Assembly (NCBI GenBank): GCA_025964175.1
Contig: JAOPZL010000004.1
Location: 1-33,454, forward strand
Direction of reading: 5' to 3'
DNA: 33,454 nucleotides
Source of the DNA: Solirubrobacterales bacterium
GTDB taxonomy: Bacteria > Actinomycetota > Thermoleophilia > Solirubrobacterales > Solirubrobacteraceae
In this document: piece after piece, positions 1,935 to 28,290 of the stretch
How the letters are laid out: every line of letters starts with the position of its first letter
How positions within the stretch are numbered: the first letter of the stretch is position 1
The notes under the pieces: model-generated
What the model saw: only the letters and a program-made list of their open reading frames with translations
What the model was told of the DNA's origin: nothing
Database searches by the model: none
Made by a program: the position numbers and the translations under genes

Positions 1935-3809
1935 TCAGTCGCCCGCCGACGGAACCGGCTCGGGCGCGGCCGACTTCGCCTCGACGGAGGGGTCGAGCAC
2001 GTCGGACTCGAACCAGGTGTAGCGGCCCTCGAGGACCTTCTGGGCCGCCTTGTACTGGGCCGCGTCGTCGTTGGCCCACAGCTCGTGGAAGAGCGCGTCG
2101 GCGCGTCGGCGGGCCTGGTGGGCGAACAGGTCGGCCAGCTCGTAGGCCTCGTCGGTGCCCAGCGTCGTCGCGTACACCGAGGCGCACGAGATCGCGTACA
2201 GCTCGGCCCCGATGTCGACGAGGCGACCGAGCAGGTGGCCCTTCTGCTCCAGGGACGCCTGGTGGCGGCCCATGAGGTAGAAGGTCGAGCGGGCGAGCTT
2301 GCGCGCCCCGCGCTCGACGTAGCGCATGTGGTCGGCGACCGGGCCGAACTCGGAGAACGAGCCGGGCTTCAGGCCGTCGCCGACCGTCAGCTTCGGGAAC
2401 CAGCCGGCGTAGAACCCGCCGGCCTTCAGCGCGCCCTTCGCCTTGTCGGCGATCGCCGTCTTGGGATCGAGGATGTCGCCCGCGACCGACAGGTGCTGGT
2501 CCAGCGCCTCACGCGCGATCAGCAGGTGCATGATCTCGGTGGAGCCCTCGAAGATGCGGTTGATGCGCATGTCGCGCAGCAGCTGCTCGGCGGGCACCGG
2601 CTTCTCGCCACGAGCGCGCAGCGAGTCGGCCGTCTCGTAGCCGCGGCCGCCGCGGATCTGGATCATCGTGTCGATGACCTGCCAGCCGAGCTCCGAGGCG
2701 TACAGCTTCGCCAGCGCGGCCTCGATGCGGATGTCGTTGCGCTTGTCGTCGGCCAGGCGGCTGGACACGTCGACCAGCGCCTCGATCCCGAACGCCGAGC
2801 CGGCGATGAACGCGAGGTTCTGGGCGACGGGGTCGTGCTTGCCGATCGGCTGGCCCCACTGCTTACGCTCCCCGGCGAACTCGCGGGCGATCTTCAGCGC
2901 GTACTTCGTCATCGCCGCGCAGATCGCCGGCAGCGAGAGGCGACCGGTGTTCAGTGTGGAGAGGGCGATCTTCAGGCCGGCACCCTCGCCGGCGATCAGG
3001 TTCTCCTTGGGCACGAAGACGTCGTCGAACGTCGTGACCGAGTTCTCGATGCCGCGCAGGCCCATGAACTGGTTGCGCGTCTGGACGGTGATGCCGTCGG
3101 TGTCGTAGGGCACGATGAAGGCCGAGATGCCGCCCTTGCGGCCCTCGCTCTTGGGCACCTTGGCCATGACGATGACGACGTCGGCGATCGCGCCGTTCGT
3201 CGCCCACAGCTTCACGCCGCTGATGCGGTAGCCGGTGCCGTCCTCGGTCGGGACCGCGGCGGTCGTCATGCGCGCCGGGTCGGAGCCGACGTCGGGCTCG
3301 GTCAGCAGGAACGCGGACACGTGCGTGCGCGCGACCTTCGGCAGCCATTCGCGCTTCTGCTCCTCCGAGCCGAACATGCGCAGCGGCTCGGGCAGGCCGA
3401 TCGACTGGTGGGCCGACAGCAGCGTCGAGATCGACGAGTGCCAGGTGCCGGCCAGCGCGAGCGCCTTGTTGTAGTAGACCTGGCTGAGGCCGAGCCCGCC
3501 GTACTCGGTGGGAATCTTGATCCCCATCGCGCCGATCTCCTTCAGGCCCTCGATGACCTCGTCGGGGATCTTCGCGTCGCGCTCGATGGCGAACGGATCG
3601 GCGGTCTCGATGAGGAACGCCTTCAGCTCGGCGAGGAACGCCTCGCCCTTCGCGGTCGCCTCGGGGGCTTCGACGGGCTGGGGGTGGATGAGGTCGGTGC
3701 GCAGCGAGCCGAGGAACAGCTCCTTCCCGAAGGAAGGCTGCTTCCACTCGGTCTCGCGGCTCGCCTCCGCGACCTGCTTGGACTCTTCGTAGGTGGGATT
3801 CGCGGCCAT
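1935..3809 (-). CDS. Acyl-CoA dehydrogenase family protein (about 624 aa, C-terminally extended)
   Basis: ACAD motifs: LLTEPDVGSDPARMTT, KLWATNGAIADVVIVMAK, IRGGRGYETADSLRARGEKPVPAEQLLRDMRINRIFEGSTEIMHLLIAREALD. Confidence 0.9.
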   Translation of the reverse strand: MAANPTYEESKQVAEASRETEWKQPSFGKELFLGSLRTDLIHPQPVEAPEATAKGEAFLAELKAFLIETADPFAIERDAKIPDEVIEGLKEIGAMGIKIPTEYGGLGLSQVYYNKALALAGTWHSSISTLLSAHQSIGLPEPLRMFGSEEQKREWLPKVARTHVSAFLLTEPDVGSDPARMTTAAVPTEDGTGYRISGVKLWATNGAIADVVIVMAKVPKSEGRKGGISAFIVPYDTDGITVQTRNQFMGLRGIENSVTTFDDVFVPKENLIAGEGAGLKIALSTLNTGRLSLPAICAAMTKYALKIAREFAGERKQWGQPIGKHDPVAQNLAFIAGSAFGIEALVDVSSRLADDKRNDIRIEAALAKLYASELGWQVIDTMIQIRGGRGYETADSLRARGEKPVPAEQLLRDMRINRIFEGSTEIMHLLIAREALDQHLSVAGDILDPKTAIADKAKGALKAGGFYAGWFPKLTVGDGLKPGSFSEFGPVADHMRYVERGARKLARSTFYLMGRHQASLEQKGHLLGRLVDIGAELYAISCASVYATTLGTDEAYELADLFAHQARRRADALFHELWANDDAAQYKAAQKVLEGRYTWFESDVLDPSVEAKSAAPEPVPSAGD

Positions 3810-3880
3810 ATCAGATGTGTACCCGATTCGGCAGTCAACGAGCGCGGCGGTTCGGCCGGCGGTGGCCCCGGGCCCAGCGG

Positions 3881-5191
3881 CTAGAACGCCAGCAGGTTCT
3901 CACGCAGAGTCGGCGCGGTGTATTCGGTGCGGACCAATCCCCGCCGCTGCAGCTCGGGCACCAGCCCCTCCGTGACCTCGATCACCTGGCGGCGGCTCAC
4001 CGCCTGGTTGTGCATGGTGATGAGGAACCCGTCGCCGCCGACCTCCTCCATGATCTCCTGCATCTGATCGGCGATCGTCACCGTCGTGCCGATCAGCGGG
4101 TACGACGACTCGAACTCGGCCGACTCGTAGACGAGCTGGCGCAGCGTCTTGCCGCTGCCCGTCTGCTGGAACTTGTCCAGCGACCCCTGCTCGCCGTTGG
4201 TGGTGAGGTGGGGCAGCTCGGCGTCCATCTCGAACGCGCTGAAGTCGATGTCGGTGATGGAGGACAGCAGCCCCAGGGTCTGCTCGGCGAAGACGTTCGA
4301 CGTGATGACGCGCTCACGACGTTCGTAGGCGTGCTCGACCGTCTCCCCCAACGTCGGGATGACCAGGAACAGCACCTTGATGTCGTCGGGATCGCGGTCG
4401 TGCGCCGCGGCGCGAGCCCGGATGTCGTCGCGGTACTCCTTCATCCCCTCGATGCCGTCGGCCAGCGTGATGATGGAGTCGGCGTGCTTGGCGGCGAAGT
4501 CCCGGCCCTTGGGCGAGCCGCCGGCCTGGACGAACACCGGCCGCCCCTGAGGCGACGGCGCGGTGTTCAGCGGCCCGCGCGACCGGAAGTAGGTGCCCCG
4601 GAAGTCGATCGGGCGCACCTTCTTGAAGTCCGCGTATACGCCGCGTTCGCGATCCATGACGATCGCGTCACGGTCCCAGGAGTCCCACAGCGCGTTGACC
4701 AGCTCCATGTACTCCTGGGCCATGTCGTAGCGCAGCTCGCGCGGCGGCAGCGCGTCCAGCCCGAAGTTCTGGGCCGCCGCGTCCTCCGCGCTGGTCACGA
4801 TGTTCCAGCCGAAGCGACCGCCCGCGATGTGGTCCAGCGTGGAGCACAGGCGCGCCAGCAGGAACGGTGGATAGCCGAGGGTCGACAGGGTGATGACGAC
4901 CCCCAACCGGGAGGTGCCGGCGCTCATCAGCGCCGCCAGCGGCGCGGGGTCGTGCTTGGGGGCCATGCCGACCGCGTGCGTGAGCACGTTCTCGGTCGTC
5001 CCGCCGTAGGCCTCCGAGACCGACAGCTTGTCCTCGACCATGACGTAGTCGAAGCACGCGCGTTCCAGCGCCTGGGCCATCTCGACGTAGAACCGGCCGT
5101 CCCATGGGGAGCCGCCGTTCTCATACGGTCCGTTCCACAGGTCCGCGGTGAAGTTCATGAACCATCCGAGGTGAAACCGCTTCGCTTCCAT
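3881..5191 (-). CDS. LLM-class FMNH2-dependent monooxygenase (NtaA/SnaA/DszA-like)
   Basis: HLGWFMNF..., GRFGWNIVTSAEDAAAQNFG, YFRSRGPLNTAPSPQGRPVFVQAGGSPKGRDFAAKHAD motifs; start placed at MEAKRFHLGWF (5191) rather than the longer ORF. Confidence 0.85.
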   Translation of the reverse strand: MEAKRFHLGWFMNFTADLWNGPYENGGSPWDGRFYVEMAQALERACFDYVMVEDKLSVSEAYGGTTENVLTHAVGMAPKHDPAPLAALMSAGTSRLGVVITLSTLGYPPFLLARLCSTLDHIAGGRFGWNIVTSAEDAAAQNFGLDALPPRELRYDMAQEYMELVNALWDSWDRDAIVMDRERGVYADFKKVRPIDFRGTYFRSRGPLNTAPSPQGRPVFVQAGGSPKGRDFAAKHADSIITLADGIEGMKEYRDDIRARAAAHDRDPDDIKVLFLVIPTLGETVEHAYERRERVITSNVFAEQTLGLLSSITDIDFSAFEMDAELPHLTTNGEQGSLDKFQQTGSGKTLRQLVYESAEFESSYPLIGTTVTIADQMQEIMEEVGGDGFLITMHNQAVSRRQVIEVTEGLVPELQRRGLVRTEYTAPTLRENLLAF

Positions 5192-5243
5192 CGTGGCTCG
5201 CTTCCTTGGGGTCGAGTCCCCATGACGGCGCAGCGGACGGGCG

Positions 5244-5266
5244 TGTTTAGCCCGCCTTCCTAAACA
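5244..5266. promoter_or_regulatory. 23-bp palindrome TGTTTAG-CCCGCCTTC-CTAAACA, candidate operator between divergent genes
   Basis: Perfect 7-bp inverted repeat arms, 9-bp spacer, in the 5192-5324 divergent intergenic region; same architecture as 24516-24538. Confidence 0.6.
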
Positions 5267-5324
5267 AAACGCGCGCCCCGCGCGTCGATCCGCCGATCGG
5301 CATAGACGAAGAGGGGCACCTGGC

Positions 5325-6932
5325 ATGGCCACGACGCAGACGTCCGCTCCACGAGCGGCGGTTCACGACACAGGGCGTGATGGCGATGAGGACGCGCTGC
5401 ACTTCGTCCCCCAGCGCGCCCGCCTGGGCAGGGCGTCGATCCTGCCGGCGTACTGGGCGCTGGTCGGCTCCCTCGTCTTCCTGATCTTCGGCGCGCTGGT
5501 CGCGCTGACCATCGGAACGACGAACGCGCTGATCGCGATGGCGATCTCCGTCGTCTTCCAGGGTGGCATCTACTACGGCCTCGCCAAGTACTCGATCCGC
5601 TCCGGCGTCACGTCGTCGGTCTTCTCCCGCGTCATGTTCGGGACGACCGGCAGCGCGCTCGCCGCCCTGCTGCTGGGAGCCGTCGCCATCTTCTACGGCG
5701 CGCTGGAGTCATCGATCATCGCCATCGCGTTCCAGAACTACGTGGGCGTCTTCTCGCTCAACGTCTGGTACGCGATCGTCGCCGTCTACAGCGTGCTGTT
5801 CGTGATCGGCGGCATCCGCAACTGGCTGGATCGCGTCAACGGCGCGCTGCTGCCGCTCTACGCCATCGGCCTCATCCTCGCGGTCGTGTGGGCCGGCAGC
5901 AAGTACGGGTTCAACTCCGCGCACTGGACCTCCTACAAGCCGGAGCACATCACCGTGTCCGGGCCGCCGCTCCTGTTCGGGATCGTCACGTACATGGGCG
6001 TGATGATCCTCACGATGTTCGCCTGGGACTACAGCCGCATGGCTCGCGAGACCGACACGCAGTTCCATCGCGTCGTCACCTTCGGTCCCGTCTACTACTT
6101 CCTGACCTACTTCGTCAACGGCGTGATCGGCATCTTCCTGGTCCTGACCATCCCCAGCAAGCTGGCGCCGGGAGAGGTGTCGATCGTCTTCGACCTGCTC
6201 GGCCTGATGGGCTTCGTCGGGCTCGTCTTCATCTGGGTCAGCCAGACGCGCATCAACACGGCGAACTTCTACGTCGCCTCGTTGAGCCTCGAGAGCTTCC
6301 TCGTGCGCCTGCTGCGGGTGCGCGTGCCCCGACTGGCCGCGGCGGCGGTCTCCGGGGTGATCGTGCTCGCGCTGATGCTGACCGACGTCTTCAGCTTCCT
6401 CGGCCAGGCGCTGTCGTATCAGGCGATCTTCGTCGTCGCATGGGTGGGCATGGCCTGCGCGCACGTCCTCGAGTCCTTCCGCCGCACGAGCACGCCGCAG
6501 GAGGGGGTCATCGACGACTGGCGTCCCGGGCGGGTCCGCGCCTTCAACCCGGGCGGCCTGATCACGTGGTTCATCGCGGCCGGGTTGGGCGTGGTGCTGT
6601 ACGAGGCGGTCGGCGGGACGTGGGGCGCATGGTCCTCGCCGATCACCTTCGTGGTGTCCTTCGGCCTCTACTGGAGCTGGCTGCGGTCCCCGTGGGCGCT
6701 GCGGTCGTTCCTGCAACGCGCGAGCGACGTCCGCGACACGGTGCCCGACCAGTGGACGTCGGAGCTCGTCTGCTCCTACTGCAGCGGCACGTTCGTGGCC
6801 CACGAGATGGACACCGACCGCGACGCCCAGCTCATCTGCGCGGCGTGCGCGCTCGACGAGCGGGCCTTCTACCGGGATGCCGTGGCGGAGGACGCGCGCC
6901 TGCGCGGCGCCGCCGCGGCACGGCGTTCCTGA
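5325..6932 (+). CDS. NCS1-family (cytosine/purine/allantoin-type) permease with C-terminal cysteine-rich tail
   Basis: Multi-TM protein; LGRASILPAYWALVGSLVFLIFGALVALTIGTTNALIAMAISVVFQGGIYYGLAKYSIRSGVTSSVFSRVMFG is NCS1-like; CSYC...CAAC tail. Confidence 0.8.
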   Translation: MATTQTSAPRAAVHDTGRDGDEDALHFVPQRARLGRASILPAYWALVGSLVFLIFGALVALTIGTTNALIAMAISVVFQGGIYYGLAKYSIRSGVTSSVFSRVMFGTTGSALAALLLGAVAIFYGALESSIIAIAFQNYVGVFSLNVWYAIVAVYSVLFVIGGIRNWLDRVNGALLPLYAIGLILAVVWAGSKYGFNSAHWTSYKPEHITVSGPPLLFGIVTYMGVMILTMFAWDYSRMARETDTQFHRVVTFGPVYYFLTYFVNGVIGIFLVLTIPSKLAPGEVSIVFDLLGLMGFVGLVFIWVSQTRINTANFYVASLSLESFLVRLLRVRVPRLAAAAVSGVIVLALMLTDVFSFLGQALSYQAIFVVAWVGMACAHVLESFRRTSTPQEGVIDDWRPGRVRAFNPGGLITWFIAAGLGVVLYEAVGGTWGAWSSPITFVVSFGLYWSWLRSPWALRSFLQRASDVRDTVPDQWTSELVCSYCSGTFVAHEMDTDRDAQLICAACALDERAFYRDAVAEDARLRGAAAARRS

Positions 6933-7026
6933 ATCGGCGCCCGGCGATAAAGAAACCGGCACCCCCTCCCGTCAGAGGGACATGCAGGACAACAGCAGAT
7001 CGAGCCGCGCGACGGAGGCGACGACC

Positions 7027-7677
7027 ATGGAGAAGGGCGCGGACCGCGCCGCGACGCTCATGGACGGCTTCCGCTCGGCCATGTCGCAGCTGGCCGCCGG
7101 GGTGGTGATGGTCACCTGCCACCTCGACGCAAAGGCGTGGGGGCTGACGGTGAGCGCCTGTTGCTCGGTCTCGATGGAGCCGCCGATGCTGCTCGTCTCG
7201 CTGGGCACGCCGACCGCGAGCGCCCGGGCGATCACCGAGAGCGGCCGCTTCGGGGTCAGCGTCCTCGGCGAGTCGCTCACCGAGGTCGCGCGCTTCGGCT
7301 CGTCCCGCGGCCAGCCCAAGTTCGTCGAGCACTTCTGCCCCGGCGACGGGGTCAGCGAGTCACCGGCGGTCGGCGGCGCGCTCGCCCACGTCGACTGCGT
7401 CGTGGAGCAGGCCATCACCGCGGGTGATCACACCCTCTTCATCGGCCGCGTTCGCGACGTGATCCTCAACGACGGGGACCGTCCGCTCGTCTACTTCGCG
7501 CAGACCTATCACCGCCTTGCCGAGTCCAACGACCTGCACGTCGGCCCGGTGGCCGGCGAGACGGTCGACTCGCTCCTCCACGACTACCCGATACCCCGCG
7601 AGTTCGCGCCCGTCCACTCGCTCGGCGTTCCGCCGTCCCGCGATCTCACCGCAGCCTCCACCGTCCATCACACGTAG
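7027..7677 (+). CDS. Flavin reductase (HpaC/RutF-like, FMN-binding split barrel) with C-terminal extension
   Basis: FRSAMSQLAAGVVMVTCHLDAKAWGLTVSACCSVSMEPPMLLVSLGTPTASARAITESGRFGVSVL...; GGAGG upstream of ATG 7027. Confidence 0.85.
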   Translation: MEKGADRAATLMDGFRSAMSQLAAGVVMVTCHLDAKAWGLTVSACCSVSMEPPMLLVSLGTPTASARAITESGRFGVSVLGESLTEVARFGSSRGQPKFVEHFCPGDGVSESPAVGGALAHVDCVVEQAITAGDHTLFIGRVRDVILNDGDRPLVYFAQTYHRLAESNDLHVGPVAGETVDSLLHDYPIPREFAPVHSLGVPPSRDLTAASTVHHT

Positions 7678-7690
7678 CCAGGGAGGATCC

Positions 7691-9280
7691 ATGGCCACCG
7701 TCGAGCAACCCGTCACCACCCCAGAGAGCACGAAGCACCTGAAGAACGCCGAGCAGTACGTCGACTCGCTGCGAGACGACCGCCAGGTCGTCTACAAGGG
7801 CGAGCTGATCAAGGACGTCACGACCCACGTCGCGACGGCCGGCGGCATCAGGAACATCGCCGCGATCTACGACCAGCAGTTCGATCCCGAGGTGCAGAAC
7901 CTGCTGACCTACGTGCGGGAGGACGGCGAGCGGGTCACCGCCTCGTATCTGATCCCTCGCACCAAGGCCGATCTCGCGTTCCGCCGCGAGGGCATCAAGC
8001 ACGTCGCCCGCCAGACCTTCGGCACCCACGGCCGCGGCATCGACATGATCTCGACGTTGCCGCTGGGGATGCTCGCGGAGCTTCCCTCCTTCCGGCGCGA
8101 GTGCCCCGACTACGCGGACAACATCGCCCGCTACATCACCTACGCGGAGGAGAACAACCTCCACCTCGGCGAGACGATCGTCGACCCGCAGGGCTTCCGC
8201 TCCCGCGCCTCGGGAACCGATCCCGAGGCGCTGCCGCCCGAGCGGGCGACCGCCCGCATCGTCAAGGAGGACGCGACCGGCATCTGGATCAGCGGGGTCA
8301 AGGGCGTCGGCACGGCCGTGCCGCAGTCCAACGAGATGATCATCGGCAGCTTCCATCCGCCGCTGGACGAGGAGAGCTTCTGGGTCATGGTGCCGATCGG
8401 CTCGCCCGGCCTGAAGATGTTCTGCCGCGAGATCGTCCACCGGCCGGAGGCCACCGCCTACGACCATCCCCTGACCTCGCGGGGCGAGGAGGTCGAGTCG
8501 ATCGTGGCGTTCGACAACCTGTTCGTCCCCAACGAGCGCGTCATCGCCAAGTCGAAGCGATCGCTGCACGGCGTGAACTTCTACAACGTCTGGGCGCGCC
8601 TGGAGCACTGGTACACGTTCGTGCGCATCACCGCCAAGGCGGAGATGTACGCGGGCCTGGCGCAGCTGATCGTCGACACGCTCGAGCTCGACGGGGTTCC
8701 GGTCGTCCGCCAGCGCGTGGCGGACGTGATCGAGTACTGCAACATCCTGCAGGGGATGTGCCTGGCCGCCGAGGACCTGGCGCAGCTCTCCGAGGGCGGC
8801 GTGATGGTCCCCGAGGTCAACATCATCACCGCCGGGCGCTCCTACGCGCTGGACAACCTGCCCCGGATCCTGCACATCCTCCAGGACCTCTGCGGCCAGG
8901 GCATGATCCTGCGCTGGACCGAGGACGACCTGAAGGTCCCGGCGGCGTTCGGCAAGGACCTGGCCTGGTTCCTGGACACGCGCAGCATGAGCGCGCGCGA
9001 CAAGAACCTGGTCATGAACCTGGTCTGGGACGTCGCCTCCAGCGAGCACGCGACCCGCTCGAAGATCTTCGAGGAGTCCAACGCGCTCAACGTCCCGTTC
9101 CTCAAGGAGCGGCTCTACGGCGAATACGACCGTTCGCGCTTCCTGCAGGAGTGCCGCCACTTCATCGGCCTCGGGCCCGCGCCCAACCGCGAGCACGAGG
9201 CGCACATCCAGGCGCCGTCGCTGTCGACCGTGGGTCACAGCACGGGTGACGACTCGTTCCGGGCGGCGGAGAAGGCGTGA
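7691..9280 (+). CDS. 4-hydroxyphenylacetate 3-monooxygenase (HpaB)-family FADH2-dependent oxygenase
   Basis: HpaB-type motifs (YVREDGERVTASYLIPRTKADLAFRREGIKHVA, DPQGFRSR, FDNLFVPNERV, HWYTFVRITAKAEMYAGLAQ); directly follows the flavin reductase; GGGAGG RBS. Confidence 0.85.
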   Translation: MATVEQPVTTPESTKHLKNAEQYVDSLRDDRQVVYKGELIKDVTTHVATAGGIRNIAAIYDQQFDPEVQNLLTYVREDGERVTASYLIPRTKADLAFRREGIKHVARQTFGTHGRGIDMISTLPLGMLAELPSFRRECPDYADNIARYITYAEENNLHLGETIVDPQGFRSRASGTDPEALPPERATARIVKEDATGIWISGVKGVGTAVPQSNEMIIGSFHPPLDEESFWVMVPIGSPGLKMFCREIVHRPEATAYDHPLTSRGEEVESIVAFDNLFVPNERVIAKSKRSLHGVNFYNVWARLEHWYTFVRITAKAEMYAGLAQLIVDTLELDGVPVVRQRVADVIEYCNILQGMCLAAEDLAQLSEGGVMVPEVNIITAGRSYALDNLPRILHILQDLCGQGMILRWTEDDLKVPAAFGKDLAWFLDTRSMSARDKNLVMNLVWDVASSEHATRSKIFEESNALNVPFLKERLYGEYDRSRFLQECRHFIGLGPAPNREHEAHIQAPSLSTVGHSTGDDSFRAAEKA

Positions 9281-9314
9281 GCCTCCGGTGGCGTCGAGCA
9301 CGGGAGGCGACGGC

Positions 9315-9968
9315 ATGAGCGATGCCGACGCGCGGCGCGTCTACGACGCGGCGCGCCTGGGGCAGAGCCTGGTCTGGGGCTCCCGCCCGGCGGTCCTCGT
9401 CGTCGACTTCACCTGCGGCTTCACCGACCCCGCGTACGGCGCGGGGTCGGAGCTGACCGCCGAGGTCGAGGCGACGCGCCGGCTGCTCGACGTCGCTCGC
9501 GACGCCGCGACCCCGATCGTCTTCACGGCGATCGGGTTCGAGGCGAGCGGCATCGATGCGGGGATCTGGCTGCAGAAGTTCCCGGCTCTGACGGAGCTGA
9601 GGCTGGGCCAGCGGGCCGTGGAGATCGATCCGCGGCTCGGGCGGCGTGAAGGCGAGGTGATCGTGCACAAGAAGGGCGCGTCCGCGTTCTTCGGCACGAA
9701 CCTCTCCGCGATCCTCGTCGCCCAGGGCGTCGACACCGTCGTGCTCTGCGGGGCGACGACGAGCGGCTGCATCCGTGCCACCGCCGTCGACCTGCTGCAG
9801 CACGGCTTCCCGGCGCTCGTCCCGCGCGAATGCGTCGGTGACCGGGCGCGGTCACCGCACGACAGCAACCTCTTCGACATCCAGGCCAAGTACGCAGACG
9901 TGGTGACGCTCGACGCGGCGCTGGAGTACGTCGAGCGCAGCGGTACACGCGCCGGGGTCGTCGCATGA
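9315..9968 (+). CDS. nicF: Isochorismatase-family amidohydrolase, probable maleamate amidohydrolase (NicF-like)
   Basis: D-K-C catalytic pattern: AVLVVDFTCGFTDP, HKKGASAFFGTNL, CGATTSGCIRATAVDLLQHGF; next to a NicX-like gene. Confidence 0.75.
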   Translation: MSDADARRVYDAARLGQSLVWGSRPAVLVVDFTCGFTDPAYGAGSELTAEVEATRRLLDVARDAATPIVFTAIGFEASGIDAGIWLQKFPALTELRLGQRAVEIDPRLGRREGEVIVHKKGASAFFGTNLSAILVAQGVDTVVLCGATTSGCIRATAVDLLQHGFPALVPRECVGDRARSPHDSNLFDIQAKYADVVTLDAALEYVERSGTRAGVVA

Positions 9969-10002
9969 CCCTCGCGCTCCCCTCCGGAGAAAGGACCCGC
10001 CC

Positions 10003-11079
10003 ATGATCACCTCGACCACGTTCGTCGACCTGTGCGTCAAGGAGCTCGAGCTCTGCAAGGTGCGGGAGGGCGAGACGGTCGCCGTCCTGTCGCAGATGGA
10101 CGAGCGGCTCGACTACGCCGACGCCTTCCTGGCCGCCGCGCACAAGCTCGGCGCCACGCCGTTCCACGTGCGGCTGCCGGAGGCCTCCACCTCGCTGACC
10201 GGCGACGCGGGAGCGTGGACGGTCGGCAACACGCCGTTGGCCAGCAATCCCGCCGCGCTGGACGCGCTGAAGTCCGCCGACCTCGTCATCGACCTGATGT
10301 TCCTGCTCTTCTCCCGGGAGCAGCTGGCGATCCAGGCGGCAGGCGCGCGGATGCTCCTGTGCGTCGAGCCGGTCGACAACCTGTCGCGGCTCTTCCCGAC
10401 CGCCGATCAGCGCCGCCGGGTCGAGGTCAGCGAGGAGCTGCTGGGCAGGGCCAGGAGCCTGCGCATCACCAACACGGCGGGAACCGACGTCGTCTACCAG
10501 CTCGGAACGCTGCCGGTGATGACCGAGTACGGCTACACCGACCAGCCCGGCCGCTGGGATCACTGGCCGGCCGGCTTCCTGTTCACGGGGGCACCGGACG
10601 ACGGCGTCGACGGCACCGTCGTCGTCGACCGCGGCGACATCATCATCACGCCGTTCAAGAAGTTCGTCGAGGACCCGGTCGAGATCACGATCGAGGCGGG
10701 CCTGATCCAGGACATTCGCGGCGGCTTCGACGCGGAGCTGCTGCGCGACTACATCGCCGGCTTCGAGGACGAGAAGGCGTACGGCATCTCCCACATCGGC
10801 TGGGGCTGCAACGAGAAGGCACGCTGGTCGGGCCTGGCCAACGACCGCCGCAGCATCGGCATGGAGAGCCGCTGCTTCTACGGCAACACGCTCTTCTCGA
10901 CCGGGCCGAACGTCGAGCTCGGGGGCACCAACGACACCGAGTGCCACATCGACATCCCGATGCGCAACTGCAGCATGTTCCTCGACGACGAGCCGGTCCT
11001 CATCGACGGCGAGTTCGTCATCGAGGACCTCCGGGCGTCGCGTGCGCCGTTCGCGCCGCCTTCCGTCGCGCGCGCCTAG
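10003..11079 (+). CDS. nicX: 2,5-dihydroxypyridine 5,6-dioxygenase-like protein (NicX / aminopeptidase-T-like fold)
   Basis: 358 aa; GISHIGWGCN (H264) and ECHIDIP (H315, D317), corresponding in spacing to the His/His/Asp iron ligands recalled for NicX. Confidence 0.75.
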   Translation: MITSTTFVDLCVKELELCKVREGETVAVLSQMDERLDYADAFLAAAHKLGATPFHVRLPEASTSLTGDAGAWTVGNTPLASNPAALDALKSADLVIDLMFLLFSREQLAIQAAGARMLLCVEPVDNLSRLFPTADQRRRVEVSEELLGRARSLRITNTAGTDVVYQLGTLPVMTEYGYTDQPGRWDHWPAGFLFTGAPDDGVDGTVVVDRGDIIITPFKKFVEDPVEITIEAGLIQDIRGGFDAELLRDYIAGFEDEKAYGISHIGWGCNEKARWSGLANDRRSIGMESRCFYGNTLFSTGPNVELGGTNDTECHIDIPMRNCSMFLDDEPVLIDGEFVIEDLRASRAPFAPPSVARA

Positions 11080-11133
11080 CCGGACCGTCCCGATGACCAA
11101 CGACAGCCTGCCCATCGACCGAGGAGCGCGAGC

Positions 11134-12000
11134 GTGAAGCCTGCACCATTCAAATACGCCAAGGCGGAGACGGTGGCGGAGGCGACGGCCCTCCTGGACC
11201 AGCATGCCGACGACGTCAAGGTGCTGGCCGGTGGCCAGAGCCTGATCCCGCTCATGAACATGCGCCTCGCGCGGCCGGAGGTGCTGATCGACATCACCGG
11301 CATCGACGAGCTGTCGGGCATCGAGGTCAACGGCGCGCTCACGATCGGCGCGACGACCCGTCACGTCGAGGTGCTGCGGTCGAACGAGGTGCGCGCCTTC
11401 GCCCCGATCATCGCTGCCGCGATGCGCCACGTCGGCCATGTCGGCGTGCGCACCCGCGGCACGTTCGGCGGCTCGGTGGCCCATGCCGACCCGGCGTCGG
11501 AGATCCCGGCGATCGTGATCGCGCTGGACGGCGAGCTGACGGTCGCCGGACCGTCCAGCGAGCGGACGGTCGCGGCGGCGGACTACTTCGTCAGCACGTT
11601 CACGACCGACATGGAGGAGAACGAGATCCTCACCGCGGTGCGCTTCCCCTACCCGCTGGACCGGGCTCGCTGGTCGTTCCACGAGGTGGCGCGGCGCCAC
11701 GGCGACTTCGCGCTGGTCGGCGTCGCCGCGGTGGCCGAAGTCGACGACGCCGGCGTCTGCACCCGCGCCCGCATCGCGCTCAGCGGCGTGTCCGACGTCC
11801 CGGTGCGCGCCACGGCGGCCGAGGAGCTGGTCGTGGGCAGCACGATCGGCGAGGTCGCCGCCGAGGCGGGCCGTCTGGCGGAGCGGCAGATCGATCCGGG
11901 CAGCGACTTCCACGCGTCCGCCGAGTACCGCAAGGAGGTGGCGCGGGCCCTCGTGACCCGCGCGCTCAACGACATGGCCACCAAGGGAGAAGCGCGATGA
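11134..12000 (+). CDS. Molybdenum hydroxylase FAD-binding (medium) subunit, CoxM/NdhF-like
   Basis: AGGQSLIPLMNMRLARPEVLIDI and TRGTFGGSVAHADPASEIPA FAD-binding motifs. Confidence 0.9.
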   Translation: MKPAPFKYAKAETVAEATALLDQHADDVKVLAGGQSLIPLMNMRLARPEVLIDITGIDELSGIEVNGALTIGATTRHVEVLRSNEVRAFAPIIAAAMRHVGHVGVRTRGTFGGSVAHADPASEIPAIVIALDGELTVAGPSSERTVAAADYFVSTFTTDMEENEILTAVRFPYPLDRARWSFHEVARRHGDFALVGVAAVAEVDDAGVCTRARIALSGVSDVPVRATAAEELVVGSTIGEVAAEAGRLAERQIDPGSDFHASAEYRKEVARALVTRALNDMATKGEAR

Positions 12001-12509
12001 GCTCCACGATCGACGTGGGCACCCAGCCCACCGACGACCAGCGGATCCTCCGCATGACCATCAACGGGGTTCAGCGGCGGGGGATCGCCGAGCCGCGCAT
12101 GCTGCTCGTCGACTTCATCCGTCATGAGCTGCAGCTGACCGGCACCCACGTCGGCTGTGAGCACGGCGTCTGCGGCGCCTGCACCGTCCGGGTCGACGGC
12201 GAGGTGGTGCGCTCGTGCATCATGTTCGCCGTCCAGGCCGAAGGGGCGCAGATCGAGACCGTCGAGGGCCTGGCCAAGGACGGCGAGCTGAACGTCGTCC
12301 AGCAGGCGTTCCGCCAGGAGCACGGCCTGCAGTGCGGCTTCTGCACCCCGGGCATGCTGCTGGCCACCGAGAGCCTGCTGGCGGAGAACCCCGATCCCTC
12401 CGAGGAGGAGATCCGCGACTACCTGTCGGGCAACGTCTGTCGTTGCACCGGCTACGTGGGGATCGTCAAGTCCGTCCAAGCGGCCGCCAAGCAGCGGTCG
12501 CAGGCCTGA
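11997..12509 (+). CDS. Molybdenum hydroxylase 2x[2Fe-2S] (small) subunit, CoxS-like
   Basis: GCEHGVCGACTV and QCGFCTPGM...NVCRCTGY cluster-binding motifs; ATGA overlap with the preceding gene. Confidence 0.93.
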   Translation: MSSTIDVGTQPTDDQRILRMTINGVQRRGIAEPRMLLVDFIRHELQLTGTHVGCEHGVCGACTVRVDGEVVRSCIMFAVQAEGAQIETVEGLAKDGELNVVQQAFRQEHGLQCGFCTPGMLLATESLLAENPDPSEEEIRDYLSGNVCRCTGYVGIVKSVQAAAKQRSQA

Positions 12510-12517
12510 GGAGCCAG

Positions 12518-15001
12518 ATGGCCATCCAAGAGACGCTCAACACCGGGCTGAACATCCAGCCCGAGGCCGAGGCCGACGCTGTCCTGCAGCGACGCAAGTA
12601 CATCGGCATGAACGTGCTGCGCACCGAGGATCCGGCGTTCCTGACCGGGCGCGGCAAGTACACCGACGACGTCCACCTGACGGGGATGCTGCACGCGGCG
12701 TTCCTGCGCAGCGCGCAGCCGCATGCGCGGATCGTCAGCATCGACAAGACGCGTGCGCTGGCGCTGGACGGCGTCATCGACGTGATCACCGGGGAGGACC
12801 TCGAGGACACGGTCGGGCCGTTCTCGACGACCGTCCACCGCCCCGAGGTCGAGACGGTGACGCGGGCGATCCTCAACTCGAAGGTCGCGCTCTACGTCGG
12901 GCAGCCGCTGGCCATCGTCGTCGCCGAGTCGCGGTACCTGGCCGAGGACGGCGTCGACGCGCTCGACGTGGAGTACGAGGTCCTGGAGCCCGTGATGGAC
13001 GCGGAGAAGGCCCTGGAGGAGGGCTCGCCGCTGCTGTACCCGGAGATGGGCACGAACAACTTCGCCCACATCGAGTTCCAGCGCGGCGACGTGGACGAGT
13101 GCTTCGAGCGGGCCGACCACGTGTTCAAGAAGCGCTTCCACGCCGGCCGCTTCATGGCGGCGCCGCTGGAGGCCCGCGGCGTGATCGCCGACTGGGACGC
13201 GTCGGGCGAGCTGACGGTGTGGAGCTCCAGCCAGGTCCCCAACCTGGTGCGCACCTACACCGCGGGCCCGCTCGGCATCGCCGAGAGCAAGATGCGCGTC
13301 ATCTCCGAGGGCGTGGGCGGCGGCTTCGGCATGAAGGCGCACATCTTCGACGAGGAGGTGCTGATCCCCGCTGCGTCGCAGCGCGTCGGTGCCCCGGTCA
13401 AGTGGATCGAGGACCGCTACGAGAACCTGGCCGCGTCGCTGCACTCCAAGGAGGTCATCGTCTACCTCGAGATGGCCGTCCAGGACGACGGCACGTTCCT
13501 CGCCTTCAAGGGCCACTACATCGGCGTCGGCGGCGCCTGGCCCGCGCACCCTTGGACGTCGCTGATCGACCCGCTGCCCGCCGCGTCGCTGCTGCCCAGC
13601 TTCTACGACATCGAGGCCGTCGGCTGGTCGATCGACGCGCCGATGACCAACCGCTGTCCGCTCGGCGCCTACCGCGGCGTCGGTTGGACGCCGGGGCACA
13701 GCGCCCGCGAGACGATGATCGACGACATCGCCCGCGAGCTGGGCATCGATCCGCTGGAGATCCGCCTGAAGAACATGATCCCCGACGGCGAGGAGTTCGT
13801 CACCGTCACCGGGATGAAGTACGACGGCGGCAGCTACAGCGCGTCGATGCTCAAGGTCAAGGAGATGATCGACTACGACGGGCTGCGCCAGAAGCAGGCC
13901 GAGCTGCGCAAGGAGGGCAGGTACATCGGCATCGGGTGGAGCCCGTGGGTCGAGCCCTGCGCGTGGGGTTCGGAGGTGGCCAAGGCCAACGGCTTCGCCG
14001 CCGAGTTCTTCGACGCCGCCAGCGTCACGATCGAACCCGACGGCTCGGTCACGGTGACCACCGGCTGCCACAACCACGGGCAGGCGCACTACACGACGCT
14101 GGCCCAGGTCACCGCCGACACGCTCGGCGTTCCGTTCGAGAGCATCAGGGTGATCGAGAACGACTCGGCCACCGCGGTCTACGGCACCGGCACGTACGCC
14201 AGCCGCACCGCAGTGGTCGCCGGCGGCGCGATCATGCGCGCCGGCAGCGAGGTGCGCGACAAGATCATCCGGCTCGCCGCCCACGCGATGGAGGTCAGCC
14301 CCGAGGACATCGACCTCGCCGAGGGCAAGGCCAGCGTCAAGGGCGTCCCGGACAAGGTCATGACCATGCAGGAGATCGGGATGCTCGCCTACTACGGCGG
14401 GCCCAACCGGATCCCCGACACGGAGCCGACGCTGACCGCGACGCGCTCCTACGACCCGCCGGAGACCTACAGCAACGGCACGATCGTCGCCATCGTCGAG
14501 GTCGACATCGAGACCGGCAAGGTCCACCTGCAGCACATCGCGGCATGCGAGGACTGCGGGACGATGCTCAACCCGATGGTCATCGACGGGCAGATGCACG
14601 GGGCGATCGCCCAGGGGATCGGCGGCGGGATGTACGAGGACCTGGCCTACGACGCGAGCGGTCAGTTCCTGGCCAGCAGCCTCATGGACTACCTGTACCC
14701 ATCCACGACGGAGGTCCCGAACATCGAGATCGCCCACATCGAGACGCCCTCGACGGTCACCGAGGGCGGCATCAAGGGCATGGGCGAGTCCGGCACGATC
14801 GCCTCTCCGGTCGCGTGCCTGAACGCGATCGCCGATGCGATCAGCCCGTTCGGCGACATCAAGATCATGAAGTCGCCGATCGGGCCAAACGACGTCCGGG
14901 AGATGCTGCGTGCGGCTGCGGCCGGCAGCAACGGCTCGGCGCCGGCGACACAGCCGGCAGACGTGGAGACGCGGTTGAGCCAGCAGGCGGAGGGGGCGTA
15001 G
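12518..15001 (+). CDS. Molybdenum hydroxylase molybdopterin (large) subunit, CoxL-like, AYRGVGW active-site loop
   Basis: VLRTEDPAFLTGRGKYTDDV, GVGGGFGMKAHIFDEE, AYRGVGWTPGHSARE, catalytic-Glu motif GIKGMGESGTIASP. Confidence 0.92.
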   Translation: MAIQETLNTGLNIQPEAEADAVLQRRKYIGMNVLRTEDPAFLTGRGKYTDDVHLTGMLHAAFLRSAQPHARIVSIDKTRALALDGVIDVITGEDLEDTVGPFSTTVHRPEVETVTRAILNSKVALYVGQPLAIVVAESRYLAEDGVDALDVEYEVLEPVMDAEKALEEGSPLLYPEMGTNNFAHIEFQRGDVDECFERADHVFKKRFHAGRFMAAPLEARGVIADWDASGELTVWSSSQVPNLVRTYTAGPLGIAESKMRVISEGVGGGFGMKAHIFDEEVLIPAASQRVGAPVKWIEDRYENLAASLHSKEVIVYLEMAVQDDGTFLAFKGHYIGVGGAWPAHPWTSLIDPLPAASLLPSFYDIEAVGWSIDAPMTNRCPLGAYRGVGWTPGHSARETMIDDIARELGIDPLEIRLKNMIPDGEEFVTVTGMKYDGGSYSASMLKVKEMIDYDGLRQKQAELRKEGRYIGIGWSPWVEPCAWGSEVAKANGFAAEFFDAASVTIEPDGSVTVTTGCHNHGQAHYTTLAQVTADTLGVPFESIRVIENDSATAVYGTGTYASRTAVVAGGAIMRAGSEVRDKIIRLAAHAMEVSPEDIDLAEGKASVKGVPDKVMTMQEIGMLAYYGGPNRIPDTEPTLTATRSYDPPETYSNGTIVAIVEVDIETGKVHLQHIAACEDCGTMLNPMVIDGQMHGAIAQGIGGGMYEDLAYDASGQFLASSLMDYLYPSTTEVPNIEIAHIETPSTVTEGGIKGMGESGTIASPVACLNAIADAISPFGDIKIMKSPIGPNDVREMLRAAAAGSNGSAPATQPADVETRLSQQAEGA

Positions 15002-15010
15002 GAGCCCGCT

Positions 15011-15052
15011 CCGATCGGGTGTGGAGCCGGGGTCGGCTCCGCACCCGATCGG
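15011..15052. terminator. Strong hairpin 3' of the CoxL-like gene (possible terminator/attenuator/processing stem)
   Basis: CCGATCGGGTGTGGAGCC (15011-15028) vs GGCTCCGCACCCGATCGG (15035-15052): 18-bp stem, one mismatch (G-U capable), 6-nt loop; no clear U-tract. Confidence 0.55.
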
Positions 15053-15173
15053 CGTTGCCGCGTAGGTGAGGGCGGTCTTGCCCGAGACCGGCAGGAGGAG
15101 GCCCGTTCCCCGCGACACGCGCGTGGACGGAGACGAAGCCAACCATCGCCATGCGAGAGGAGTGCTGTTTCAG

Positions 15174-16592
15174 ATGTCCTTCTTCAAAGAGCAAGTCAGC
15201 GCGAGCTACTACACCCTCGACGTCTTCTATCTGTTGGCGTCCGTATGTCTACTGCTCGTCGTCACCGCAATCGGCCTGATCGACGCAGGCCTCGTTCGTC
15301 GGCGCAACATCCTGGAGACCTGGCTGGTGAAGCTGGCCTCCGCGATCCTCGCCGGAGGCGCGTTCCTGGTCGTCGGCTACGGCATCTGGAACTGGCAGTA
15401 CTTCCAGGCGCTGGGGATCCCCAATCCACTCGGGGAGGCGATCAAGGGGTGGTGGATCGGTGGTTCGAACATGACCACGTTCTCCCACAACCTCGATCCC
15501 GCGATCACACCTGAAGCCGATGTGTTCCAGATCTTCGCGGTGTTCTTCTTCGCGTACGCGGCCGTGATCGGCGCGCTTCTGCACTCGGCCGGGCTCGAGC
15601 GCATCAGGGCGGCGCCGATGTTGATCATCGCCGTCATCGCCGGCGGCATCGTGATGCCGTTCGAGGCGTACCTGACCTGGGGCTCGGCGAGCTTCCTGAC
15701 CAACAACGGCGCGCACGACTACCTGGGCCTGTTCTCCTGCTACGTCCTCGTGGGCGTGTGGGGCCTGATCATCGCCTGGAGGGTCGGGCCTCGGCTCGGC
15801 GCGTTCCGCCCGCATCCGCAGGCGGCCGGCGTCTTCCCGGGCAACCTCGGACTCACGGGGATCGGCATCGGCCTGCTGCTGTTCGCGGTGCCGTTCCTGG
15901 CCCTCGGCTGCGGCTTCATCGTCCCGGACGCCGGCTACTTCGGCATCTCGATGGCGACGAGCGGGTTCGGCCTGGTCGCGCTCAACGTCGTCGCCTCCTA
16001 CACCGGCGGCCTCCTGGGCGGCATGGCCATCTCCTACCGGACGCGCAACCCGCTGTTCGCGATGATCGGCCCGGTCGCCGGCTACCTGGGCTGCGCGGCG
16101 TGCCTGGACATCGTGGACCCGTGGGTCTGCTTCCTCGTGGCGCTCTTCTCGCCGTTCGCGTTCTGGCTCGTCTACACGATCCTCTACCGCCTGAAGATCG
16201 ACGAGAAGAAGGTCGTGCCGCTCGGTCTGGGCTGCGGCACGTACGGCGCCATCGTCGCCGGGTTCGTCGGATGGCACACGCCCACCGGCGGCTACTTCGG
16301 GCTCGAGGGCGCCTATGGCTTCCAGCACGCACAGGTGACGCCGTGGATGCAGCTCGCGGCGCTGGGCGTGACGGTCGCGGTCGCCGCGGTCTCGGGGCTG
16401 ATCGTCATCGTCGGACTCGAGAAGACCATCGGCCTGCGCGTCAAGCGGGAGGATGAGCTGCAGGGTCTGGACGACGCTCTGTGGGCCACGCCGCCCGAGC
16501 CGGTCGAGCAGGTCCTCGCCGACTACGGCAACGGGGCCGTGCCGGACCAGGAGCCGGCCCCCGTAGGGGTGCCGGTGTCGCCGGGCCTCTAG
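15174..16592 (+). CDS. Amt/ammonium-transporter-family membrane protein, divergent, apparently lacking both twin-His residues
   Basis: Amt signatures: GLIDAGLVRRRN (cf. GLAFFYGGLVRRKN), HDYLGLFSCYVLVGVWGLIIAWRVGPRLGAF, GPVAGYLGCAACLDIVDPW, C-terminal GLRVKREDELQGLD. Confidence 0.75.
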   Translation: MSFFKEQVSASYYTLDVFYLLASVCLLLVVTAIGLIDAGLVRRRNILETWLVKLASAILAGGAFLVVGYGIWNWQYFQALGIPNPLGEAIKGWWIGGSNMTTFSHNLDPAITPEADVFQIFAVFFFAYAAVIGALLHSAGLERIRAAPMLIIAVIAGGIVMPFEAYLTWGSASFLTNNGAHDYLGLFSCYVLVGVWGLIIAWRVGPRLGAFRPHPQAAGVFPGNLGLTGIGIGLLLFAVPFLALGCGFIVPDAGYFGISMATSGFGLVALNVVASYTGGLLGGMAISYRTRNPLFAMIGPVAGYLGCAACLDIVDPWVCFLVALFSPFAFWLVYTILYRLKIDEKKVVPLGLGCGTYGAIVAGFVGWHTPTGGYFGLEGAYGFQHAQVTPWMQLAALGVTVAVAAVSGLIVIVGLEKTIGLRVKREDELQGLDDALWATPPEPVEQVLADYGNGAVPDQEPAPVGVPVSPGL

Positions 16593-16617
16593 CCGGCAGC
16601 ACCGACGACGCAGTTCC

Positions 16618-16651
16618 GCTGCGCCCCGTCGCCCCGGCGACGGGGCGCAGC
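16618..16651. terminator. Perfect GC hairpin between Amt-like and MoxR/CoxD-like genes
   Basis: GCTGCGCCCCGTCGCC (16618-16633) is the exact reverse complement of GGCGACGGGGCGCAGC (16636-16651). Confidence 0.55.
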
Positions 16652-16680
16652 ATTCCGTCATCCCGACCGAAGGACCTGAT

Positions 16681-17568
16681 GTGTCATCGCTGACGCCGGA
16701 GCTCACCCGCTTCGCCTCGATCGAAGACGTCGAGACCGCGCTCGAGCGGGAGCGCTACCTGCCCGACCGGGGGCTGGCCACCTCGATCTACCTCGCCACG
16801 ACGATGCGCCGGCCATTGCTGCTGGAGGGCGAGGCCGGTGTCGGCAAGACCGAGGTGGCCAAGACGCTGGCCCGGATCCTCGGCGTCGACCTGATCCGCC
16901 TCCAGTGCTACGAGGGCATCGACTCCGGTCAGGCGCTCTACGAGTGGGACTACTCGCGCCAGCTGCTGTACGCCCGTGCCGTCCAGGAGGGGGACTTCGG
17001 CGAGCGCGTCTCCGAGCTCTACGGACCCGAGTTCCTGCTCGAGCGCCCGCTGCTGCGGGCCGTCCGCTCCGGGGGCCAGGCGGTGCTGCTCATCGACGAG
17101 CTCGACCGCTCCGACGACGAGTTCGAGGCGTTCCTCCTGGAGATCCTCTCGGACTACTCCGTGACCATCCCCGAGATCGGCACGATCGAGTGCGCCATCC
17201 CGCCGATCGTCGTCCTGACCTCCAACCGCACCCGCGAGCTGCACGACGCGCTCAAGCGCCGCTGCCTCTTCCACTGGATCGACTTCCCGACGCCCGAGCG
17301 CGAAGCCGAGATCATCCGGCTGCGTGCCCCGGAAACCTCCCAGCGGCTCGCCGAGTCCGTGGCCGCGACGATCGCGCGCATCCGCGCGCTGGACCTCGTG
17401 AAGATCCCCGGAGCGGCCGAGGCGATCGACTGGGCCACCGCTCTGGCCCTCCTCGGAGCCGACGCCGTGACCTCGGAGGCGGCACGGGTGAGCCTCGGCT
17501 GGGCGATCAAGAACCGCGACGACCTGCTCGTGGTGCAACGGCTGCTCCCGGAGCTGCTGGATGAGTGA
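16681..17568 (+). CDS. MoxR-type AAA+ ATPase, CoxD-like Mo-hydroxylase maturation factor (GTG start)
   Basis: Walker A GEAGVGKTEVAK, Walker B VLLIDELDR, VVLTSNRTRELHDALKRRCLFHWIDFP; next to a VWA protein. Confidence 0.88.
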   Translation: MSSLTPELTRFASIEDVETALERERYLPDRGLATSIYLATTMRRPLLLEGEAGVGKTEVAKTLARILGVDLIRLQCYEGIDSGQALYEWDYSRQLLYARAVQEGDFGERVSELYGPEFLLERPLLRAVRSGGQAVLLIDELDRSDDEFEAFLLEILSDYSVTIPEIGTIECAIPPIVVLTSNRTRELHDALKRRCLFHWIDFPTPEREAEIIRLRAPETSQRLAESVAATIARIRALDLVKIPGAAEAIDWATALALLGADAVTSEAARVSLGWAIKNRDDLLVVQRLLPELLDE

Positions 17569-18646
17569 CGCGCTGCTCGACCACCTGCTCGGGTTCGGGC
17601 GGGCGCTGCGGCTGGAGGGCGTCACCGTCGGCACCGGCCAGATCCTCGAGTTCAGCCGGGCCGCCGCCTTGCTGGGACCGGCCGACTTCTACTGGGTCGG
17701 CCGCGCGACGCTGGTCAGCCGGCGCGGCGACATCAAGACCTACGACACCGTGTTCCGCCGCTACTGGAAGGGCGATCTCGGCCAGGAGCTGACGGCGACG
17801 GAGATCATCGAGCGCGTCCGCGGCGTCGCCGACGACGACGGGCTCGTGGGTGGCGACCGGGGCCGCGACGTGCAGCCCGACGCCGAGCGCGCCAGCCGGC
17901 TGGAGCTGTTGCGCTCCAAGAGCTTCTCCCGCATGAGCGAGCAGGAGCTGCGCGAGCTGGGCCGGCTGATCGCCCACCTGCGCCTCGCGGTGCCGCTGCG
18001 GCGCTCCCGTCGCCGGCGCCCGGCGCACCGCGGCGATCCCGACGTGCGCCGGACGCTGCGTCGCTCGCTGCGCACCGGCGGGGAGCCGCTGGAGCGCGCG
18101 TGGCGCGATCGCCGTCCGCGCCAGCGGCGCGTCATCTTCATCCTCGACGTCAGCGGGTCGATGGCCTCCTACTCGCGCGGCCTGCTGATCTTCGCCCACG
18201 CGGCGCTGCGCGCCGATGCCGGCTGGGAGACCTTCTGCTTCGGCACGCGGCTGACGCGCATCACCCGCAGCCTCGCCAAGTCCGATCCCGACACCGCGCT
18301 GACGCGCGCGGCCGAGCAGGTCCACGACTGGGACGGCGGAACGCGGATCGGCGACTCGCTCAAGCAGTTCCTCGACCGCTACGGCCACGGCGGCATGGCG
18401 CGCGGCGCGGTGGTGGTCATCTGCTCCGACGGGCTGGACATCGGCGACCCCGTCGTCCTCGACGCCCAGATGCAGCGCCTGGCCCGACTGGCGTATCGGG
18501 TGATCTGGCTCAACCCGCTGCAGGAGCAGGCGGGGTACCAGCCGATCGCCCGCGGCATGGCGGCCGCGCTGCCCCACGTCGATGCGTTTCGCAGCGGGCA
18601 CAACCTGGCCAGCCTCGAGGCGCTCGCGCAGGAGCTGGCGACCTAG
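17561..18646 (+). CDS. VWA-domain protein, CoxE-like
   Basis: MIDAS-like FILDVSGSMASYSRGLL; ICSDGLDIGDP; overlaps the MoxR gene. Confidence 0.88.
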   Translation: MSDALLDHLLGFGRALRLEGVTVGTGQILEFSRAAALLGPADFYWVGRATLVSRRGDIKTYDTVFRRYWKGDLGQELTATEIIERVRGVADDDGLVGGDRGRDVQPDAERASRLELLRSKSFSRMSEQELRELGRLIAHLRLAVPLRRSRRRRPAHRGDPDVRRTLRRSLRTGGEPLERAWRDRRPRQRRVIFILDVSGSMASYSRGLLIFAHAALRADAGWETFCFGTRLTRITRSLAKSDPDTALTRAAEQVHDWDGGTRIGDSLKQFLDRYGHGGMARGAVVVICSDGLDIGDPVVLDAQMQRLARLAYRVIWLNPLQEQAGYQPIARGMAAALPHVDAFRSGHNLASLEALAQELAT

Positions 18647-24458: not shown

Positions 24459-24483
24459 CTGAGGTCTCTCCTGAGGTCGTGGC

Positions 24484-28282: not shown

Positions 28283-28290
28283 ACCATCCG

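Follow-up and report, generated by a model that had tools for sequence, protein, structure and literature searches.

A candidate pyridine para-hydroxylase of the two-component HpaB type beside NicX in a Solirubrobacterales genome

The closest described counterpart of the gene cluster studied here is the nic pathway of Pseudomonas putida KT2440 (NicAB, NicC, NicX, NicD, NicF, NicE). The cluster was found in the window, a stretch of 33,454 nucleotides that makes up a whole contig (JAOPZL010000004.1; C194) of the genome of a soil-type actinobacterium in the Solirubrobacterales, of 3.92 Mb, 433 contigs and 93.9% completeness, with Conexibacter and other Solirubrobacterales as its nearest relatives. 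The two systems are alike in a molybdenum hydroxylase that comes first, in 2,5-dihydroxypyridine as the expected intermediate and in the NicX-NicD-NicF-NicE route. They differ in that the window has a two-component HpaB-type hydroxylase (flavin reductase, 7027-7677; oxygenase, 7691-9280) and not the class A flavoprotein NicC, and in that its molybdenum enzyme is of the three-subunit quinoline-oxidoreductase type. The HpaB pair is predicted to make the 2,5-dihydroxypyridine that NicX cleaves, with a probability of about 0.75, and is probably a non-orthologous replacement of NicC.

Other known enzymes resemble the pair in part. The chlorophenol and nitrophenol para-monooxygenases HadA, TcpA, TftD and NpcA share with the oxygenase its family, its predicted dependence on reduced flavin adenine dinucleotide (FAD; reduced form, FADH2), the His290 position and the flavin-site residues, and its best PDB matches are 7dbw and 9j9j. 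However, the window enzyme is 28-30% identical to them, forms a separate clade, lies in a pyridine gene context, has Glu where they have Pro at the position of TtHpaB His142, and differs in its pocket residues. The 4-hydroxyphenylacetate 3-monooxygenase TtHpaB (2yyg) has the HpaB_N and HpaB domains and a partner flavin reductase in common with the window system, whereas the window protein is without Tyr104 and His142 and falls far under the NCBIfam cut-offs. HpdABCDE of Burkholderia sp. MAK1 would carry out the same reaction if the window substrate is 2-hydroxypyridine, and is a multicomponent di-iron enzyme unrelated to the HpaB type. The 6-hydroxy-3-succinoylpyridine hydroxylase HspB/Hsh of nicotine degraders also produces 2,5-dihydroxypyridine, starting from a 6-hydroxypyridine whose side chain para to the OH is lost; unlike the window pair, it is a single-component FAD-containing monooxygenase (PMC7688666). 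The open-access papers searched describe no enzyme of the HpaB type that produces a dihydroxypyridine. Both the enzyme family and the lower pathway are already known, but these papers do not report the two in combination.

The reductase-oxygenase pair and the NicX route

The genes that make up the proposed route are the following.

7027-7677, + strand: flavin reductase, oxygenase partner (216 aa, ATG at 7027; PF01613 Flavin_Reduct, E 5.1e-37)
7691-9280, + strand: HpaB-family FADH2-dependent oxygenase, proposed pyridine para-hydroxylase (529 aa; HpaB_N, PF11794, residues 20-285, E 7.4e-63; HpaB, PF03241, residues 309-489, E 9.9e-29)
9315-9968, + strand: NicF-like maleamate amidohydrolase, isochorismatase family (PF00857; best PDB match 4l07, E 5.2e-55, then 3ot4/3uao)
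10003-11079, + strand: NicX, 2,5-dihydroxypyridine 5,6-dioxygenase (sole PDB match P. putida NicX 7cn3, E 7.6e-96, 47% identity over 334)
11134-12000, + strand: FAD (medium) subunit of a xanthine-oxidase-family molybdenum hydroxylase (PF00941, PF03450)
11997-12509, + strand: [2Fe-2S] (small) subunit of the molybdenum hydroxylase (PF00111, PF01799)
12515-15001, + strand: molybdopterin (large) subunit, N-heterocycle hydroxylase type (best PDB match quinoline 2-oxidoreductase 1t3q, E 1.1e-176)
18647-19462, + strand: NicD-like N-formylmaleamate deformylase (best PDB match deformylase 4l0c, E 3.2e-45)
19452-20216, - strand: NicE-like maleate cis-trans isomerase (PF17645; best PDB match 4fq7, E 1.1e-76)

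The original prediction had described a flavin reductase followed by an HpaB-family oxygenase directly upstream of NicF/NicX-like genes, and coordinates, Pfam domains and strand all agree with this order. The gap between the two genes is 13 bases, and AGGGAGG lies upstream of the oxygenase ATG. They are not chance open reading frames (ORFs), because homologues 73-88% identical keep the same order in other genomes, and the reductase gene adjoins HpaB in close relatives (L007-L011 and G693). By sequence, the pair is a two-component group D flavin monooxygenase of the HpaB/TftD family, with predicted use of FADH2. The reductase had StyB/HpaC-type NCBIfam matches, all under cut-off. Against the NCBIfam HpaB models the oxygenase scored 235.4 bits (cut-off 480.2) and 123 bits (cut-off 885.2), and in the PDB ranking 7dbw and 9j9j were followed by TtHpaB, TcpA, HadA and TftD.

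The window holds the full nic-type maleamate pathway set of NicX, NicD, NicF and NicE. In NicX, the iron ligands H264, S299, H315 and D317 correspond to His265, Ser302, His318 and Asp320 of the P. putida enzyme; the substrate contacts Glu177, His189 and Leu104 are kept as E175, H187 and L102, and His105 is replaced by Phe103. The H105F mutant of P. putida NicX stays active (PMC7910607). NicX, NicD, NicF and NicE each match solved Pseudomonas lower-pathway enzymes best, and the route therefore needs 2,5-dihydroxypyridine. The window covers every step from the oxidation of a ring carbon adjacent to the nitrogen down to fumarate. For the second ring hydroxylation, the HpaB pair is its only good candidate. 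NicD, NicE and the molybdenum hydroxylase (11134-15001), which the original prediction did not mention, complete the route in the same window.

In the proposed mechanism, the molybdenum hydroxylase would make a 2-hydroxypyridine-type compound and the reductase would supply FADH2 to the oxygenase, in which a C4a-hydroperoxyflavin would form. His306 would take the proton from the ring OH (or pyridone NH) of the 2-hydroxypyridine, and oxygen would enter para to the OH, at C5, to give 2,5-dihydroxypyridine. NicX would then open the ring to N-formylmaleamate, from which NicD, NicF and NicE would yield formate, ammonia and fumarate. The substrate may be 2-hydroxypyridine, by plain hydroxylation, or 6-hydroxynicotinate, by a displacement with decarboxylation like that of NicC. 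Para attack fits both: in 2-hydroxypyridine, C5 lies para to the 2-OH, and the carboxylate-bearing C3 of 6-hydroxynicotinate is the same position.

Active-site residues were read against TtHpaB and TcpA, with HadA/TcpA numbering for the flavin site. The flavin-site residues R115, Q167, R170, T208 and R246 are identical to R101, Q158, R161, T193 and R233 of HadA/TcpA. The bases of the ortho-hydroxylase TtHpaB are absent, with Tyr104 replaced by Met119 and His142 by Glu161, and His306 corresponds to the catalytic His290 of HadA, TcpA and TftD, which removes the proton of the phenol OH and so lets oxygen enter at the para carbon. His290 is the catalytic base in HadA and was found by the HadA authors only in displacing (dehalogenating, denitrating) members (PMC8342789). 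The combination of Glu at the His142 position with His at the His290 position occurred in 13 of 15 NicX-linked homologues and in none of 17 unlinked ones (Fisher p 3e-7, n = 32), a p value that is too small owing to relatedness, as the tree requires 4 changes of the linkage label, compared with 11.7 when labels are shuffled. The count excludes L008, whose contig breaks off within NicF, and scores G693 and both Peribacillus copies as NicX-linked, the true NicX of G693 being on the adjoining stretch L069. His290 alone is also present in the nitrophenol and chlorophenol enzymes, as expected.

Linkage, phylogeny and the NicC question

The module is kept in two relatives, G071, a Solirubrobacterales genome about 94% complete (stretches L009/L052), and G693, a complete single-contig genome of 5.95 Mb from the same genus as the window (stretches L068/L069). 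Both preserve the order reductase, HpaB, NicF, NicX, the medium, small and large molybdenum hydroxylase subunits, ammonium transporter (Amt), CoxD, CoxE, NicD. HpaB-NicF-NicX was also found in one Pseudonocardiaceae metagenome-assembled genome (MAG) and in one MAG from a different actinobacterium. Counting the window, eight actinobacterial loci have HpaB next to NicX, among them loci of Conexibacter and other Solirubrobacterales, and one of the eight belongs to a complete single-contig genome. Plasmids of Peribacillus frigoritolerans carry two HpaB at 46% and NicX at 52%, with NicD, NicE, NicF and a reductase, and alphaproteobacterial plasmids (Rhizobium, Ochrobactrum, Thioclava, Terrarubrum, Neorhizobium) carry HpaB at 33-36% with NicX at 43-49%, so that the linkage spans three phyla. 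Of 232 genomes sampled from the order, 5 had a close HpaB at E<=1e-110. When the whole phylum was sampled at E<=1e-60, no new genome with a close HpaB came up besides G071, and the module is therefore rare. In the locus L050 (G171:C25, 9181-11717), HpaB and NicX adjoin and both are frame-broken, as pseudogenes or through assembly errors.

In the tree, every NicX-linked HpaB fell in one clade (100/99) within a larger group that includes TcpA/NpcA but not TtHpaB, and the TcpA/NpcA rows formed their own 100/100 clade that excludes the window oxygenase. The stretch L070 (G696:C249, 5547-18246) holds two more HpaB genes, both with the His290 residue, together with a molybdenum hydroxylase, Amt, NicD and the same regulators, and no NicX on the stretch.

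Several observations weigh against the proposed role. The oxygenase is only 28-30% identical to its nearest solved relatives, Glu269 takes the place of HadA Asp254, and two residues of the HadA pocket, Phe286 and Arg208, are not conserved. The NicX-linked member of G288 has Tyr in place of the His at the His290 position. The AlphaFold model of the oxygenase, built with six homologues, had a mean predicted local distance difference test (pLDDT) score of 39, too poor for a check of geometry. The clade also contains members without NicX in reach (the window genome's own C314, Aminobacter, Dietzia and G696), and the HpaB-NicX linkage is partly a matter of descent. In addition, no molybdenum hydroxylase was seen on the stretches examined in the relatives L010 and L049.

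PF01494, the domain of NicC-type class A flavoproteins, was detected in none of the 30 window ORFs scanned with Pfam, which bears out the claim that the window has no NicC-type enzyme. The window genome has 11 PF01494 places, all on other contigs. Three of the proteins are strong matches: PobA, which passes the NCBIfam equivalog threshold; one that resembles anthracycline hydroxylases and lies where a contig ends; and a class A flavoprotein closest to 2-methyl-3-hydroxypyridine-5-carboxylate oxygenase (MHPCO), listed below.

L018 (G000:C54) 1228-2424, - strand: MHPCO-like class A flavoprotein (E 1e-60)

This last protein was considered as a hidden NicC and rejected, since MHPCO ranks at 1e-60 and NicC at 8e-20 among its PDB matches. 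A NicC/PicB homologue elsewhere in the genome, co-induced when the pair is not, had been named beforehand as evidence against the pair's role; no NicC was recognised among the PF01494 matches of the genome. G071, which has the whole module, had no PF01494 protein at E<=1e-15; the window genome and G071 are each about 94% complete, so that a missing piece is possible in either alone. G693 does have nine PF01494 proteins. Overall, the proposal that the pair fills the NicC slot by hydroxylating its substrate in para position to 2,5-dihydroxypyridine, perhaps with decarboxylation, gains support from the three-phylum HpaB-NicX linkage, the lack of a recognised NicC, the result for G071 and the HadA/TcpA-type His.

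The window genome has a second NicX cluster (L041, G000:C427, 485-8894), with NicX (61%), NicD, NicF, a molybdenum hydroxylase (36%) and a gene of the isocitrate/isopropylmalate dehydrogenase family (Iso_dh), and with neither an HpaB nor a PF01494 gene. A substrate that already has an OH at C3 would need the molybdenum enzyme alone, and the absence of HpaB from this cluster thus fits an HpaB that supplies the OH lacking in the window substrate. The Iso_dh-family enzyme is perhaps a D-malate dehydrogenase that replaces the NicE route. Two further NicX clusters without HpaB, L042 (G021, 5437-14489) and L044 (G003, 5760-9951), carry a phosphoenolpyruvate (PEP)-utilising-enzyme-like protein, in two parts in G003, and that of G021 also an aconitase-family protein; these are perhaps a phosphorylating activation and a maleate hydratase.

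Candidate substrates and alternative functions

It is quite possible, if short of even odds, that the molybdenum enzyme turns pyridine into 2-hydroxypyridine and that the HpaB pair then acts as a 2-hydroxypyridine 5-monooxygenase without any decarboxylation. The NCS1-type permease of the window and the lack of a recognised carboxylate-handling gene are consistent with this, and the reaction is known in Burkholderia MAK1, where it is attributed to the enzyme hpdABCDE (cited in PMC7356986; pathway PMC5159870). However, no sequence feature examined separates this substrate from nicotinate. For nicotinate, a tentative possibility is that the molybdenum enzyme makes 6-hydroxynicotinate and the HpaB pair swaps the carboxyl for OH by ipso attack para to the OH, to give 2,5-dihydroxypyridine and CO2, as a true functional substitute for NicC. 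The equivalence of His306 to His290, tied by the HadA authors to displacing enzymes (PMC8342789), points in this direction, as does the module common to G071 and G693, in which no separate decarboxylase was recognised, as the original prediction had reported for its genes. Yet this His is shared by rhizobial homologues, for which the likely B6-type substrate carries H on the carbon under attack, and so it need not mean displacement, and Arg208, which faces the leaving group in HadA, is absent from the oxygenase. The transporter, KpiP-like in size, mildly favours a neutral substrate, and the large molybdenum subunit is closest to quinoline oxidoreductase and distant from nicotinate dehydrogenase 3hrd.

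Hydroxylation of a 3-hydroxypyridine at C6, para to the OH, with the molybdenum hydroxylase acting otherwise, appears unlikely. It is suggested by rhizobial HpaB-NicX pairs that lie among genes of vitamin B6 degradation, the intermediates of which are 3-hydroxypyridines. In a known proteobacterial route, on the other hand, a molybdenum hydroxylase alone can convert 3-hydroxypyridine to 2,5-dihydroxypyridine, and a cluster of that make-up without HpaB, C427, is present in the same genome. It is very improbable that the two genes encode a common phenol or 4-hydroxyphenylacetate hydroxylase that just happens to lie beside pyridine genes; public records annotate relatives as 4-hydroxyphenylacetate 3-hydroxylase, but the HpaB scores stay well below the NCBIfam cut-offs, Tyr104 and His142 are absent, the tree places the oxygenase apart from TtHpaB, and the linkage with NicX is kept across three phyla. 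On direct opening of the pyridine ring by a PyrA-type enzyme, the open-access papers searched yielded nothing relevant.

If the role as a 2,5-dihydroxypyridine-forming hydroxylase is true, the pair would represent a second, unrelated enzyme class for the step before pyridine ring cleavage and would explain NicX clusters without NicC. Met/Leu-Glu-His would be a ready sequence marker for such clusters, chemistry of the HadA/TftD type would extend from phenols to pyridines, and the enzymes would be of use in the breakdown of N-heterocyclic pollutants and the production of hydroxypyridines. Candidate genes for such enzymes are those of the complete G693 genome, from the window's own genus, and those of the vitamin B6 clusters of rhizobia.

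Rhizobial loci and neighbouring genes

Two Rhizobium plasmids, CP021372.1 (L038:4215-17883) and NZ_CP048425.1 (L064:4216-17881), carry HpaB, a NicX-like dioxygenase and a flavin reductase, together with two amidases, within a set of genes for vitamin B6 degradation (a pyridoxamine-pyruvate transaminase, a pyridoxine 4-oxidase/GMC gene and a lactonase-like gene). An MHPCO-like protein used as query gave no match on either plasmid, and HpaB and NicX may therefore replace MHPCO there. It is a more speculative and rather doubtful idea that an HpaB subfamily with Glu at His142 and His at His290 is dedicated to hydroxypyridine para-hydroxylation and moves together with dioxygenases of the NicX type in Actinomycetota, Bacillota and Alphaproteobacteria. 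On this view, the enzymes of the actinobacterial branch would decarboxylate 6-hydroxynicotinate and those of the rhizobial branch would replace MHPCO in a second B6 route.

The other features of the window are listed below.

5325-6932, + strand: NCS1-family permease, probably for heterocycle uptake (PF02133, E 2.2e-6)
15156-16592, + strand: ammonium transporter family protein (PF00909, E 2.2e-30), a module member in G071 and G693 too
16681-18646, + strand: CoxD (AAA+) and CoxE (VWA), molybdenum-enzyme maturation (PF07728/PF00004, PF05762)
20219-20764, - strand: SnoaL-like protein beside NicE, also in G071 (PF14534/PF12680; 44% in L052)
21538-22347, + strand: creatininase-family amidohydrolase, kept in the module (PF02633, E 3.5e-57; 70-73% in G071/G693)
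27997-33423, + strand: histidine kinase, response regulator, sigma-70-like factor, CoxG and XdhC-type maturation protein (Pfam)

The large molybdenum subunit scores CO dehydrogenases below 1t3q, with which it shares the motifs GAYRGVG and GIKGMGES, and is only distantly related to 3hrd. A role of the 'Cox' genes in CO oxidation was considered and rejected, since the large subunit is nearest to quinoline 2-oxidoreductase and has GAYRGVGW at the place of the CoxL motif, which in form I CoxL is AYXCSFR. The permease gene is 81% identical and in the same place in a Conexibacter MAG (L007), and its product is close in size to KpiP, a 533-aa permease in the 4-hydroxypyridine cluster of Arthrobacter IN13 (PMC7356986). 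The five genes at 27997-33423 stand next to the module in G071 and G693 as well, and probably serve module regulation and molybdenum-enzyme maturation. A promoter and terminator scan of 6500-19500 revealed nothing above chance.

A creatininase-family gene, 35% identical, adjoins HpaB in the distant G288 locus (L051:10259-10963). The region 24479-27386, on to about 28000, holds a GntR regulator, a class III coenzyme A (CoA)-transferase, a 3-hydroxy-3-methylglutaryl (HMG)-CoA-lyase-family protein and an FAD-synthetase-like frame, and is an insertion absent from G071 and G693. The Peribacillus plasmid likewise has a CoA-transferase, an HMG-CoA-lyase-family protein and an FAD synthetase along with HpaB-NicX, and in G021 (L042) a CoA-transferase at 62% is found near the NicX genes. 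An acyl-CoA dehydrogenase and an NtaA/DmoA-family flavin monooxygenase (1935-5332, - strand) are divergent from the permease; they probably lie outside the module, and neither stands next to it in the relatives examined.

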